Positions 38,844 to 44,100 of a stretch of 64,000 bases of DNA are shown one piece after another. The stretch is from Fibrobacter sp. (lineage in GTDB: Bacteria; Fibrobacterota; Fibrobacteria; Fibrobacterales; Fibrobacteraceae): NCBI GenBank assembly GCA_024398965.1, contig JAKSIF010000002.1, positions 62,001-126,000 on the forward strand. Direction: 5' to 3'. Each line of letters opens with the position of its first letter. Position 1 is the stretch's first letter. The notes below the pieces were generated by a model, which saw nothing but the letters and a program-made list of their open reading frames with translations, was not told the origin of the DNA and made no database searches. Both the position numbers and the translations under genes were made by a program.

Positions 38844-39743
38844 TTATTCAGCCCAATGATTACCGTTGTAATTACGGGCTGTATCTGCATCCATTCCTAT
38901 TTGACGGATCAAATCCTCTAGGCTTGAGAACTTCTGTTCCGGACGCAGATAACCCATCAGGTCAAGAACCAGATGTTGGCCATAAATATCTTCGTTGAAG
39001 TCTAGCAGGTAGGCCTCAATGGCCATAAAATGAGTTCCCGGAGTAGACGGCTGAATTCCAATGTTCACAACGGAGCGAAGAATTCGTCCATCGGCCAAAC
39101 GGGCGTTTGCCACATACACACCGCCCTTGGGCAGGAACTTAAACTTTTCAACCTGAAGGTTGGCCGTGGGAAAACCGAGGGTTCGCCCCATGCGTTTTCC
39201 TACAACCACTTCGCCAGTCAAACGATAAGGGCGACCAAGATAAGTTTGGGCGCGATCCACGTCTCCCATTTCCAGGGCAGTACGCACCGCAGAGGAACTG
39301 ACCCGTTCGCCCTTATGCAACACAATGGATAGCATCTGGGTACTCAGTTCCGGGAAGGCAGCCGTAATGGTTTCGTAGTTGCCCTTGCCACCGGCGCCAA
39401 AGTTATGGTCGTGACCAAAAAACATGGAGCACACGTTGCGCTTTTCAATCAGTTCCTGACGGACAAACTGGTCAAAGGGCAAGTTCATGACTTCACGGGT
39501 AAAAGGCAGAACCAAAAAATCCAAGCCGAGACTTTCGATGAATTCACGTTTTTCATCGGTGGTGGTCAGCAGCAGCGGATTGCCTTCACCGCGGATTACG
39601 TAATTAGAATGAGGTTCAAAGCTGATTACCGTAGGGCGCAAGCCGTTGGCTTCAGCCACAGCCTTCAGGGAACGGAAAAGCACTTGATGGCCCAAATGGC
39701 AGCCATCAAAATTTCCCATGGTAACAGCGCGTTTTACACTCAT
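38844..39743 (-). CDS. ribF: Bifunctional riboflavin kinase / FAD synthetase
   Basis: Makes FMN from riboflavin and ATP, then FAD. 299 residues. The FAD-synthetase half starts with VTMGNFDGCHLGHQVLF (nucleotidyl-transferase GNFDG-xH-x-GH motif, 8-24). VSSSAVRTAL follows near 147. The riboflavin kinase half contains GRTLGFPTANL (about 183-193) and the acidic IEAYLLDFNEDIYG. It is the last gene of the rimP-nusA-infB-rbfA-truB operon, 20 bases after truB, a placement seen in many bacteria. Confidence 0.95.
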   Translation of the reverse strand: MSVKRAVTMGNFDGCHLGHQVLFRSLKAVAEANGLRPTVISFEPHSNYVIRGEGNPLLLTTTDEKREFIESLGLDFLVLPFTREVMNLPFDQFVRQELIEKRNVCSMFFGHDHNFGAGGKGNYETITAAFPELSTQMLSIVLHKGERVSSSAVRTALEMGDVDRAQTYLGRPYRLTGEVVVGKRMGRTLGFPTANLQVEKFKFLPKGGVYVANARLADGRILRSVVNIGIQPSTPGTHFMAIEAYLLDFNEDIYGQHLVLDLMGYLRPEQKFSSLEDLIRQIGMDADTARNYNGNHWAE

Positions 39744-39763
39744 ATCTCTACGTTCGGAAAAAA

Positions 39764-40771
39764 CTACTCGTCCGCGGCCAAGTAAATCTTGGGTCTAATG
39801 CGGCCCGGTTCATAATGGCAAAAACTCAGAACCTCGCCTTTCAAGTTGGCTACAAAAATATTGCCTTCAGCATCAACACCTTCAATGGGTGTTTTCCAAG
39901 GAAGATAATTACCCTGGCGAATCACAGCTACCTGGGAATCATCCAAACGGACTACCGGGAAATCAAGAATCTGATCCACCGGAATCAAATGTTCGCGAGT
40001 CAAATTTTCTCCACGAACCGCCTTGTCCAAGGTCACGTTGCCGATGCGATGGCGTCGTATTCCGGAGACACAGCCGCAAGTTCCAAGAGCCCGTGCAATG
40101 TCACGGCCCAACGCACGTATATAGGTACCCTTACTGCATTCGCAAATCAAGTCGAACGTAGCAATAGCCTTGCCAGAACAGCCTTCGGTTGCATCGTTGG
40201 CGACCACATCGGTCACCTTCAGAGAGCTGATGTTGATCTTGCGGGCCTTCAGTTCGATATCACGGCCTCGTTCCATCAGGTCGCTGGCTCGGACACCGTT
40301 AATCTTTACGGCGCAGTACTTGGGCGGCACCTGTTCAATGTCACCAATGAACTGGGGTAGAACAGCCTCAAGATCCTGCAAACTAATTTGCGTTTGTGGA
40401 TTGCTAGATTCTTCGACTTCGAACCTTTCGGTTCTACGCTCAGAATGACACTCTGAAAGTCCAGAGTCTAGAGACTCGTCTCTCGTCGTTCCTCTCTCGT
40501 CTGTCGCAATCACTTCGCCATCCCATTCCAGGGTATCGGTCTGGTAGCCCAGATGAAGTCTAAAGCTATAGCACTTGTCCTTTGCTTCAACAAAGGGCAA
40601 CAAACGGGTGACGCGGCCGGTGGCAGCAATAATCAAACCTGAGGCACGTAAATCAAGCGTACCTGCGTGGCCAACTCGCTTTGTAGAAAAGACCCTTTTC
40701 AGTGGGAAAAGGGCCTTAAAAGAAGTTTCACCAGCAATCTTGTCTAACAGGACAAAGCCAGAATTGGACAA
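39764..40771 (-). CDS. truB: tRNA pseudouridine-55 synthase, with repeat-derived insertion
   Basis: Converts U55 of tRNAs to pseudouridine. 335 residues from TTG 40771, immediately after the rbfA stop, with AAAGGGGA upstream. The catalytic Asp is in GHAGTLDLRASG (about 34-45), and VPPKYCAVKINGVRASDL follows around residue 157. Between EWDGEVIATD and SLQDLEAVL there are about 40 extra residues (DESLDSGLSECHSERRTE, RFEVEESSNPQTQ) that TruB proteins normally lack. The DNA there looks like a dispersed repeat inserted in frame. It falls in a surface region between two conserved blocks, so activity may be retained. Confidence 0.92.
   Translation of the reverse strand: MSNSGFVLLDKIAGETSFKALFPLKRVFSTKRVGHAGTLDLRASGLIIAATGRVTRLLPFVEAKDKCYSFRLHLGYQTDTLEWDGEVIATDERGTTRDESLDSGLSECHSERRTERFEVEESSNPQTQISLQDLEAVLPQFIGDIEQVPPKYCAVKINGVRASDLMERGRDIELKARKINISSLKVTDVVANDATEGCSGKAIATFDLICECSKGTYIRALGRDIARALGTCGCVSGIRRHRIGNVTLDKAVRGENLTREHLIPVDQILDFPVVRLDDSQVAVIRQGNYLPWKTPIEGVDAEGNIFVANLKGEVLSFCHYEPGRIRPKIYLAADE
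40383..40512. repeat. Repeat element inserted in truB
   Basis: About 130 bases with simple-repeat character foreign to the gene. On the minus strand they run from GACGAGAGAGGAACGACGAG through GAGTC-TCTA-GACTC and GTCATTCTGAGCG to GAACC-GAAA-GGTTC and GAAGAATCTAG. The two small palindromes and the CATTCTGAGCG...GAAGAATCTAG frame are typical of dispersed intergenic repeats in Fibrobacter-like genomes (recalled, not checked). The length keeps the truB frame open. Confidence 0.7.
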
Positions 40772-41125
40772 TTAGAGTTCCCCTTTCTGTTTCAGTTCTG
40801 CAAGAATGCTTTCGATATGCATGGCATGTTCCAAGTTCTCGTCTAGCACAAAGTTCAGTTCGGGAATCTTGCGAATCTTAAGGGCCTTGCCAAGAACCCC
40901 GCGGATAAATCCGGCAGAGTTCTTGAGACCAATGAGAGAATCGCGCTTTTCCTTATCGGAACCCATCACGGAGACCATGATCTTTGCGTAGCTCAGGTCA
41001 TCGTCAATAGTGACGCGGGTAATGCTGGACAAAGAGCTCACGCGAGGATCCTTGAGACCCTTCTGGATCATCTTGGAGATTTCCTCGCGGAACTGTTCGC
41101 CTAATCTGTCGGTTCTACGACTCAT
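40772..41125 (-). CDS. rbfA: Ribosome-binding factor A
   Basis: KH-fold factor for late 30S maturation and cold adaptation. 117 residues. N-terminal SRRTDRLGEQFREEISKMIQ, central KDPRVSSLSSITRVTIDDDL and SYAKIMVSV, and C-terminal PELNFVLDENLEHAMHIESI are all diagnostic. Its ATG overlaps the infB stop by one base, and its stop abuts the truB start. Confidence 0.95.
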   Translation of the reverse strand: MSRRTDRLGEQFREEISKMIQKGLKDPRVSSLSSITRVTIDDDLSYAKIMVSVMGSDKEKRDSLIGLKNSAGFIRGVLGKALKIRKIPELNFVLDENLEHAMHIESILAELKQKGEL

Positions 41126-44100
41126 TAAACGGATTCCTCTTCGTTAGCCTTCTTAGCCTTTTCTTCGGCTTCTTCGCGGGCAACGTCCTTCAAGGTACGA
41201 GCAACAGAGACTTCCTTGAAGAAGATCAAGCTATCGCCTTCACGAATATCGTCGTAACCCTTAAGACCGATACCGCATTCAAAGCCGCGGGCAACGGACT
41301 TGACGTCGTCCTTCATGCGCTTCAGAGACTGAACAACGGTAGTACCAAGTTCTACGCCGTTGCGGTATACGCGCACATGGCTTTCGCGGTCCACGGAACC
41401 GTCGGTAACCATACAGCCGGCGATGAGACCGACCTTGGGAACCTTGAAGACCTGGCGGATTTCTGCTTCACCGCTAAGTTCTTCACGGAGAGTGGGCTTG
41501 AGGAGGCCTTCAACAGCGTTGGTGATATCTTCGATACAGTCGTAAATCACGCGGTAATTGCGGATTTCGATGCCTTCCTTCTGGGCCATTTCGCGGACAG
41601 CGAGAGACGGCATCAAGTGGAAGGAAACAATGATAGCCTGAGCGGTTGTTGCAAGAAGGATATCGGATTCAGTGATGGTACCAACACCCTTACGGATGAT
41701 GTTAACACGGACTTCCTTGTTGGTGAGCTTTTCGAGAGAAGCTGCGAGAGCTTCGGCAGAACCACCCACGTCAGCCTTGACGATGAGGTTAAGTTCAGAG
41801 AGCTTACCATCCTTCTTTTCATTGAAGGTGTTTTCGAGAGATACTGTCTTACGGGCGCGGAGATCGCGTTCACGGGCAGCCATACGGCGCTTGGAAGCAA
41901 TTTCACGTGCGGTCTTTTCGTCTTCAACCACGATAAGATCGTCACCGGCCTGAGGAGTACCATCGAAACCAAGAACCTGGCAAGGAGCAGAAGGCGGAAC
42001 TTCCTTAAGCTGTTCACCACGTTCATTAAACATTGCACGGACACGACCTGCATAGATACCGCAGACAAACGGGTCACCCACATGGAGGGTACCGTTCTGC
42101 ACGAGGATCGTAGCCATGGAACCCTTACCCACGTCAAGCTTGGATTCCACAACAGCACCACGTGCGTGTGCATCCGGGTTAGCCTTAAGTTCAAGAACTT
42201 CGGCTTCGAGAGCAAGAGTTTCAAGAAGTTCGTCCATACCCTGACCGGTACGTGCGGAAACTTCGATACAGCTGGTAGAACCACCCCACTGTTCCACTTC
42301 TACGCCGCGTTCAGCAAGCTGGGCACGGATCTTGTCGGGATTTGCAGTGGGAAGGTCAATCTTGGTAATAGCGACCACCATCGGAACCTTTTCGCGCTTG
42401 GCAAGTTCGATGGATTCAACAGTCTGGGGCATGACCATGGAGTCTGCTGCCACAACCAGCACGATAACGTCGGTGACCTGAGAACCACGGGCACGCATTG
42501 CGGAGAATGCTTCATGACCCGGAGTATCAAGGAAGGTAACCTTACCCTGGCTGGTGGTAACTTCGTATGCACCAATATGCTGGGTAATGCCGCCGGATTC
42601 GCCAGCCACAACGTGGGTCTTACGGATCCAGTCGAGCAAGGAGGTCTTACCATGGTCAACGTGACCCATCACGGTAACCACCGGATGACGGGGCTGCTGA
42701 TTTTCTTCGACTTCGGTTTCTACACCGAGAGCTTCTTCTTCGTATTCTTCCATCAGCTGAGCTTCAAAGCCGAATTCGTCGGCCAGGAGCTGGATGGTTT
42801 CAAAGTCGAGGCGAGCATTGATGGTCACCATCATGCCCATTTCCATGCACTTCGCAATAACGCGAGCAGGCATCTGTTCCATCAGGCCAGCGAGTTCGCC
42901 AACAGTGATGAAGTCAGAAGTCTTCAGGATCTTCTTTTCGTCGCCAGTTTCGCCTTCGGCCTTTTCCTTACGGTAGACCTTCTTGACAGGCTTCTTGGAG
43001 AGGTCAGCCATCACGCGGGAAACGTTCTGACGAACGGCTTCCTGCTGCTGTTCTCTCTGCTGGTCGCGATCCTTACCGTTGTTGCGACGGTTCTTGTCGT
43101 TCTGACCATGACGGCCATTCTGCTGAGAGCCCTTGCCGCCCTTGCCACCCTGACCGGCACCAAAGCCGCCCTGAGCTGCATTATTGCTAGCGTTAAAGGC
43201 ATCCTGCATGGAGCTACCGGTAAAGCCACCGGTACGTCCTGTAAAGGTGCGTCCGCCGTTATTGTTGTTGCGGTCGCCGCCCTGGCCACCCTGACCCGGA
43301 CGACGGTTACCGCCATTGCGGTTGTCCTGACCGTTGTTGTTCAAGCGGCCAAAAGTACCTGTGTAACCCTGCTGGTTGCCACCGTTTCCGCGGGGACCAT
43401 TGCCAGGGCGGTGTCCGCCGCGGCTCTGCTGAGCCATCTGGCGAGACTTTTCGATACGAGCAAGAATTGCTGCATCGGGTTTGAAAACTTGAGCCTTCAT
43501 AGGCGGCTGCTTCAGTTCCATGCCCGGGGTAACCATGGCAGGTTCTGCTGCAGGAGCCTTTGCGGCAGCGGGAGCTTCGGCCTTGGTGGGAGCTGCAGGT
43601 GCCGCAGGCTTCACTTCGGCCTTGGGAGCCGGCTTCGGTGCTACAGGAGCCTCGACCTTGGCAGGTTCTGCCTTCGGGGCAGAAGCTTCAACAGGAGCTG
43701 CCTTTGCAGGTTCTGCCTTGGGAGTTTCTACAGCCTTCGCGGGCTCAGCCTTAACTGCAGGCTTTACCTCGGCCTTGGGAGCGACAGCGGGTGCTGCAAC
43801 TTCAGCAGGCTTTACTGCGGGAGCCTCAACCTTGGCAGGTTCTGCCTTCGGGGCAGCAGGCTTTACAGTTGCAGTAGTTTTAACAGCAGTGGGCTTACCC
43901 TTAATGAGGGTTGCCTTAAGCTTGCGTCCACCGGCAGCGGGAGCTGCTGCGGTCTTACTGGCCGTAGCGCTGGCAGCCTCGGAAGTGGAGGACTTCTTCA
44001 GGTTCTTGTTTCGGGCTTCGGCCTTGGCACGTTCGGCTTCGGCGGCGGCTTCGATCTTCGCATAGTCCGCGGCATCGACCTTGGACATGTGGGTACGTAC

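Follow-up and report, generated by a model that had tools for sequence, protein, structure and literature searches.

Repeats that have become protein sequence have been described in Rickettsia and in a small number of other bacteria. As described in PMC3733652 (Di Nocera et al. 2013), CGTC-tagged REPs have stems of 8–9 bp and loops of 4–5 nt, and in-frame intragenic repeats occur in other bacteria with truB among the host genes, including RPE-1 in R. conorii truB; the main text of that paper contains no mention of Fibrobacter. Rickettsia palindromic elements (RPE) measure 100–150 bp and carry a conserved peptide, and an ATGAC motif is reported for RPE-4/6/7, according to PMC10969869 and PMC3767692.

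Here we describe tagged hairpin repeats within genes of Fibrobacter, a gut genus of another phylum, starting from a window of 64,000 nt (the whole stretch of DNA that was analysed; contig JAKSIF010000002.1 of GCA_024398965.1, positions 62,001–126,000). Fibrobacter, unlike Rickettsia, is not an intracellular bacterium. No report of such repeats in Fibrobacter was found in the literature searched, which mostly excluded subscription papers; as far as these searches go, the host genus, the recurrence of several repeat families at one loop and the stasis of shared inserts are new.

The window contains truB as an uninterrupted ORF of 335 codons on the minus strand (40771–39764). The score of its product exceeds the family cut-off of TIGR00431 (NCBIfam), and the features of the TruB family are kept, namely the TruB_N domain (PF01509 in Pfam, TIGR00431) and KRVGHAGTLD with the GxLD motif, the Asp of which we take to be the catalytic residue. 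The neighbours, named from position and sequence, are presumably rbfA (41125–40772) and ribF (39743–38844), flanking truB, and infB (44196–41125). The features discussed below are the following:

39764..40771, minus strand: truB, tRNA pseudouridine(55) synthase; ORF of 335 aa, start TTG; PF01509 2e-39, TIGR00431 1e-59
40365..40510, minus strand: 146-nt tract identical in the sister genome G071; all 145 truB differences (of 1005 nt) lie outside it
40451..40507, minus strand: low-complexity 5' part of the insert, with GAGTC-TCTA-GACTC and units resembling GACGAGAG; encodes approximately TDERGTTRDESLDSGLSE
40404..40450, minus strand: F1, the dispersed hairpin unit in truB (about 47 nt), TGTCATTCTGAGCG-inner hairpin-CGAAGTCGAAGAATCTAG; in-frame peptide CHSERRTERFEVEESS
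40442..40446, minus strand: 5' arm of the F1 outer stem, ATTCT on the minus strand; the unpaired tag TGTC (40447–40450) stands ahead of it
40421..40434, minus strand: inner hairpin of F1, GAACC-GAAA-GGTTC; its sequence differs between copies, with pairing kept
40408..40412, minus strand: 3' arm of the F1 outer stem, AGAAT on the minus strand

The insert thus consists of two parts, the low-complexity 5' part (40507–40451) and the hairpin unit (40450–40404), and the reading frame is open through the whole of it. A preliminary description of this DNA had proposed a dispersed palindromic repeat of about 130 bases, inserted in frame into truB between two conserved blocks and adding about 40 residues. 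Both palindromes that it named are present (GAACC-TTTC-GGTTC at 40421–40434 and GAGTC-TAGA-GACTC at 40464–40477), as is the encoded peptide SECHSERRTERFEVEESSN. Its placement agrees with an alignment to solved TruB structures (the solved relatives of the product are 1sgv and 1k8w); there the insert is placed between positions 110 and 116 of the E. coli protein (1k8w). The added length turned out to be smaller, about 33 codons relative to the shortest relatives (loop of 65 vs 32) and 24 relative to the nearest insert-free ones (41). The residues of 1k8w around the site are presumably a core beta strand followed by a helix, and the insert probably lies in a surface loop of TruB; this position is drawn from the 1k8w alignment and inference, a single-sequence structure prediction (mean pLDDT 30) being uninformative. 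A search of 39700–41200 against Rfam was negative with E values up to 1 allowed.

The 130 bases used as a query matched 23 places in the window's own genome (3,588,035 nt in 151 contigs), 22 of them besides the insert itself. The dispersed part indeed exists, but it comprises only about 47 nt (40404–40450). The whole 130 nt as one mobile element was rejected: matches at other sites cover at most query bases 17–76, and the core ACGAGAGACGAG of the 5' part is found in truB only, with no second copy in 1.58 Mb of the own genome.

We then counted copies of the unit by a head-plus-tail pattern over 1,576,796 nt of the own genome, namely six whole contigs and parts of six more. The pattern held GTCAT fixed with up to two mismatches, left the first tag base free and favoured AT pairs. 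It identified 37 F1 copies, compared with none in three third-order shuffles. Exact heads in the sampled sequence numbered 24 for F1 and 16 for a second tagged family, F2, vs 0 and 2 after shuffling. The consensus of the aligned copies is TGTCATYCTGAGCG-variable inner hairpin-CGAAGTCGAAGRATCYAG. Thirty-five of the 37 copies start with TGTC (24) or CGTC (11), and the tails, compared with the short unpaired tail fitting CCA of CGTC-tagged REPs, end in ATCCAG in 11 and in ATCTAG in 20 of the 37. The unit is built from a 5-bp outer stem, two additional pairs, bulges and a 4–5-bp inner hairpin. Both the outer stem and the inner hairpin covary across 20 aligned copies. The first two outer-stem pairs are AT/AT in all 20, bases which the search pattern favoured; the third pair reads C-G in 13 copies and T-A in the other seven, and one pair of the inner hairpin, formed in 18 of the 20 copies, is G-C in six, C-G in four, A-T in six and T-A in two. 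An inner stem of 4–5 bp was found in each of eight long copies tested (shuffle frequencies 0.002 to 0.058). For folding energy, the truB unit by itself has a z of −2.1 and the whole 130 nt a z of −0.6. A structural search free of family motifs (GTCAT + arm ... arm' + ATC) was dropped, having yielded 19 sites vs 10 in one shuffle and 4–13 for permuted words.

F1 resembles the CGTC-tagged REPs of PMC3733652 in the unpaired CGTC or TGTC tag, the AT first two stem pairs, the absence of an attached transposase gene and the in-frame intragenic copies; it differs in its 5-bp outer stem, its bulges and variable inner hairpin, and in having more than half of the counted copies in genes. Because of its stem and loop size it is called CGTC-REP-like here and is placed outside the four published families. 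With RPE it shares the dispersal of palindromic DNA, in frame, over many unrelated genes, truB included (PMC3733652), and the ATGAC of RPE-4/6/7 (PMC10969869 and PMC3767692) is the reverse complement of the GTCAT in F1; unlike in RPE, the repeated unit has about 30–50 nt, is read in two frames and occurs in a different phylum. Like the GTAG REPs, which are moved by RAYT transposases, F1 is a short hairpin repeat with some copies within genes (PMC3733652), whereas its tag is TGTC/CGTC, not GTAG, and Y1_Tnp genes lack flanking F1. The own genome harbors two IS200-type Y1_Tnp genes (L134 and L135, on C32 and C9) with open frames of 163 and 160 codons; inspection of both loci, for this transposase class only, revealed no F1 unit flanking either. 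At one of them an F2-like tagged hairpin lies more than 100 nt downstream of the ORF. This distant unit was not taken as a link, and a connection to RAYT was rejected. We know of no enzyme that moves CGTC-type repeats. The F1 unit presumably moves as DNA by means of a mobilising enzyme, and a flanking transposase was not seen.

Next we analyzed the positions of the 37 copies relative to ORFs of at least 150 aa, chosen by a greedy longest-ORF rule, under which some copies near ORF starts may precede the true start. Twenty copies lie wholly within ORFs, 15 between ORFs and two across an ORF edge. Nineteen of the 20 intra-ORF copies are in the sense orientation and one is antisense; the sense copies are read as VILS.. 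in 12 cases and as CHSE.. in seven, that is, in two frames. Stop-free frames alone predict a sense fraction of 0.49 (P=1.4e-5 for the own genome). Forty regions around matches were examined in two relatives: G055 has 20 copies there (six sense and no antisense within ORFs), and G023 has 24 (ten sense and four antisense), a weaker bias. Pooled over the three genomes, 35 of 40 intra-ORF copies are sense (P=4e-7). Hosts with Pfam or NCBIfam domains include topoisomerase III (topB), CobA-HemD (cobA-hemD) and an AhbA-AhbB fusion (ahbAB), as well as a UvrA-like protein, a HAD phosphatase, a TolQ/ExbB protein and a U32 peptidase. The insertion had been called unusual in the preliminary description; an in-frame repeat in truB it is, but the host genes are many, and insertions in truB had already been reported in other bacteria (PMC3733652). 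For annotation, CHSERSEESS or VILSEAKNL within a protein may be read as a mark of repeat insertion. Separately, serine-rich linkers of three surface-type ORFs contain in-frame hairpin units (SSSSVILSDSEGSSSS, SSSSVIPGTDPGSSSS; L116:5256–6533, L206:12609–13895 and L115:18261–19385, own genome C7 and C3), as if hairpin repeats helped to build such linkers.

A search of 101 genomes of the family matched truB in 92; 70 of these genes were taken and 65 parsed, 64 from the genus and one from outside it, five taken from other genera being left out as they lack the anchor motif. We set eight loop motif families (F1–F8) from short motifs. At least one of the eight is found in 39 of the 64 genus loops, and the other 25 orthologues carry none; together with the many copies elsewhere, these orthologues bear out the proposal of a dispersed palindromic repeat inserted in frame. 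A GTCAT-tagged hairpin is present in 34 of the 64 loops (F1 in 15, F2 in 11 and F3 in eight). On the truB tree, computed with the loop left out, the minimum number of changes is 11 for F1, nine for F2, five each for F3 and F4, three for F5, seven for F6, and three each for F7 and F8. The loop sequence differs in nearly every clade, and the window's own insert occurs, within a clade of ten species, only in its genome (G000) and in G071, the opposite of a segment present in all Fibrobacter truB genes with no copies elsewhere. The truB loop is therefore a recurrent landing site at which relatives hold other hairpin families.

A joined F1+F2 query gave repeated matches in all ten genus genomes tried. 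In contrast, the motifs tried for F4, F5 and F7 occurred in the sampled part of G000 about as often as expected by chance, and the large loop of G046, which includes F7, matched only the truB locus when used as a query in G046, G066 and G029; the idea that every truB loop insert is a dispersed repeat was accordingly given up, dispersal being shown for F1 and F2 only. Other hosts behave like truB. In TopB (found in 68 of 71 genomes, 30 aligned) and in CobA-HemD (found in 63 of 71, 30 aligned; ORFs of 497–704 aa where not cut short), there are sites at which the repeat-like peptide varies from species to species. The control gene ribF, matched in 64 of 71 genomes, is a single stretch with no large insertions, except in G087, where it gives two partial matches on two contigs. 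Ordinary enzymes such as TruB, topoisomerase III and those of the heme pathway thus bear repeats at recurring sites, and 64 genomes are at hand to trace the process.

Could an assembly or binning artefact have put the repeat into truB? The G071 assembly is a draft in about 80 contigs with a completeness of 82%, but the reading frame is unbroken, the insert sits in the interior of contigs of 82 kb and 210 kb, and similar inserts occur in near-complete assemblies of 9–30 contigs (G034, G042, G055, G061). We regard an artefact as scarcely credible.

It is very probable that a tagged REP-like hairpin entered truB in frame, at a permissive surface loop of the protein which serves as a recurrent landing site. 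The reading draws on the dispersal of the unit, its frame, the sense bias, the covarying hairpin, the clade-limited presence and the recurrence at the same loop. A CGTC/TGTC-tagged REP-like hairpin, a short non-autonomous dispersed repeat, would enter truB in the sense direction, arriving together with or beside unrelated low-complexity DNA. It would land in the permissive loop between the core beta strand and the next helix, where frame-keeping insertions that add a hydrophilic peptide (CHSER.. or VILSE..) would survive and others would be purged. The loop is probably neutral for TruB, and the longer, insert-bearing protein is presumably made. No pair of closely related strains offered an empty and a filled site, so that no target duplication could be read.

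The inserts shared between genomes have changed little. The truB genes of G000 and G071 show 145 differences over 1005 nt, with 124 silent and eight replacement codons, and yet gene positions 261–406, which hold the insert, are identical. Over 4 kb, truB and ribF of the two genomes differ by about 10 per 60 nt right up to both edges of this tract; the longest other identical run in the two genes is at most 39 nt, and the end of infB has one of 101. Full conservation of the insert peptide and DNA between G000 and G071 might be expected of an old selected TruB extension with a protein function of its own, its likeness to the repeat being due to low-complexity convergence. The conservation, however, reaches silent sites, the loop is different in nearly every clade, and the covarying hairpin also occurs in unrelated genes, between genes and in many phyla, which makes such an extension highly improbable.

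Insertion of a repeat into the loop remains our preferred reading, and the stasis extends beyond this pair of genomes. Fifteen loop pairs have equal lengths and the same labels, a choice which favours similarity, although the labels come from short motifs; 14 of them differ by 0–0.019 at a core third-position divergence of 0.07–0.43, the outlier being G094/G088 (0.148, 12 of 81). Ten sister pairs, one per clade and including two with unlabelled loops, show 20 differences vs 85.8 expected from the all-site core rate or 211.9 from the third-position rate. Seven unlabelled pairs are bimodal, two at 0.02–0.04 and five at 0.52–0.71. Shared inserts of TopB and CobA-HemD are alike in this respect, with, for example, 29 codons unchanged at a core third-position divergence of 0.355, these being the best cases from a list sorted by similarity. 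In the heme cluster, G100 has the AhbB copy, edges included, in identical form inside a segment of 80% identity, and G071 lacks the HemD copy. One copy between genes shows almost no change from G000 to G071; since its spacer is conserved too, conservation of non-coding DNA in general may account for this near-identity.

Two explanations of the stasis were weighed. The first adds to the insertion model a recent spread of shared inserts between species, by recombination or as movable cassettes, and we give it an even chance. Loops are either near-identical or wholly different, with little between; the F8+F6 part of the G087 loop matches the G042 group at all but 1–2 of 107 nt at a core third-position divergence of 0.24–0.26, although G087 is placed away from that group in the truB tree; and gene clusters of relatives are mosaics of 80% and 93–96% identical segments. 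Simple recombination is disfavoured, however: its tracts should reach into the flanks, and the sharp edges of the G000/G071 tract at the loop speak against it. Nor does G000 hold a second full-length copy that could have been the donor. Sharp edges would instead fit the second explanation, by which shared inserts are old, vertically inherited and constrained as nucleotide sequence (through a hairpin acting as RNA or DNA, or an element read on another strand), as would the few differences in nine of ten sister pairs across insert families and the intergenic copy likewise conserved in G000 and G071. On the other hand, the conserved tract extends beyond the hairpin, inserts of unrelated sequence all behave alike, unlike what one specific function would produce, and the G094/G088 pair differs at 12 of 81; constraint of this kind seems rather unlikely. 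We favour recent lateral spread or turnover over nucleotide-level constraint, neither being proved.

More tentatively, loops of Fibrobacter proteins may be sockets, in which hairpin cassettes are swapped as complete units, both within a species and from one to another, at a pace that exceeds the divergence of the host genes, with few point mutations meanwhile. This, if true, would need either a system that moves CGTC-type repeats precisely as DNA or selection on hairpin DNA or RNA within coding sequence. Shared inserts that are near-identical while the surrounding silent sites diverge by up to 0.43 offer a direct handle on the movement and persistence of such repeats. A separate observation concerns the heme/siroheme cluster (L105, own genome C5, about 50–55 kb), which compared with its counterpart in G100 (L432) is a mosaic of segments of 93–96% identity beside one of 80%, pointing to recombination between species.

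In a wider search, a 29-nt pattern of the unit was found in at least 119 stretches, in many phyla. Among the matches listed (80 loci with 89 copies, some from Fibrobacter), 22 copies are contained in ORFs of 150 aa or more, with 14 in the sense and eight in the antisense orientation; this in-ORF share of the matches listed is below the 20 of 37 in the own genome (P=0.002), the pattern and the ORF rule being slightly different. A truB match was obtained in 41 of 45 genomes that carry the pattern. One Magasanikbacteria draft (Patescibacteria, L386) has a TruB with a related unit (CHPFDRLRAGSKQSEESS / CHPFDRLRAGSKQSEESSSS) just before KVGHAGTLD, in a different loop from the Fibrobacter insert. 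In alphaproteobacteria, truB was matched in 359 of 385 genomes (two with two matches), and no large insert was seen among the best-scoring matches listed. Finally, the truB match at C4:8964–9566 of G146, the genome of L290, contains 16 in-frame TGA codons and no stop of another kind, which suggests that this genome may read TGA as an amino acid.
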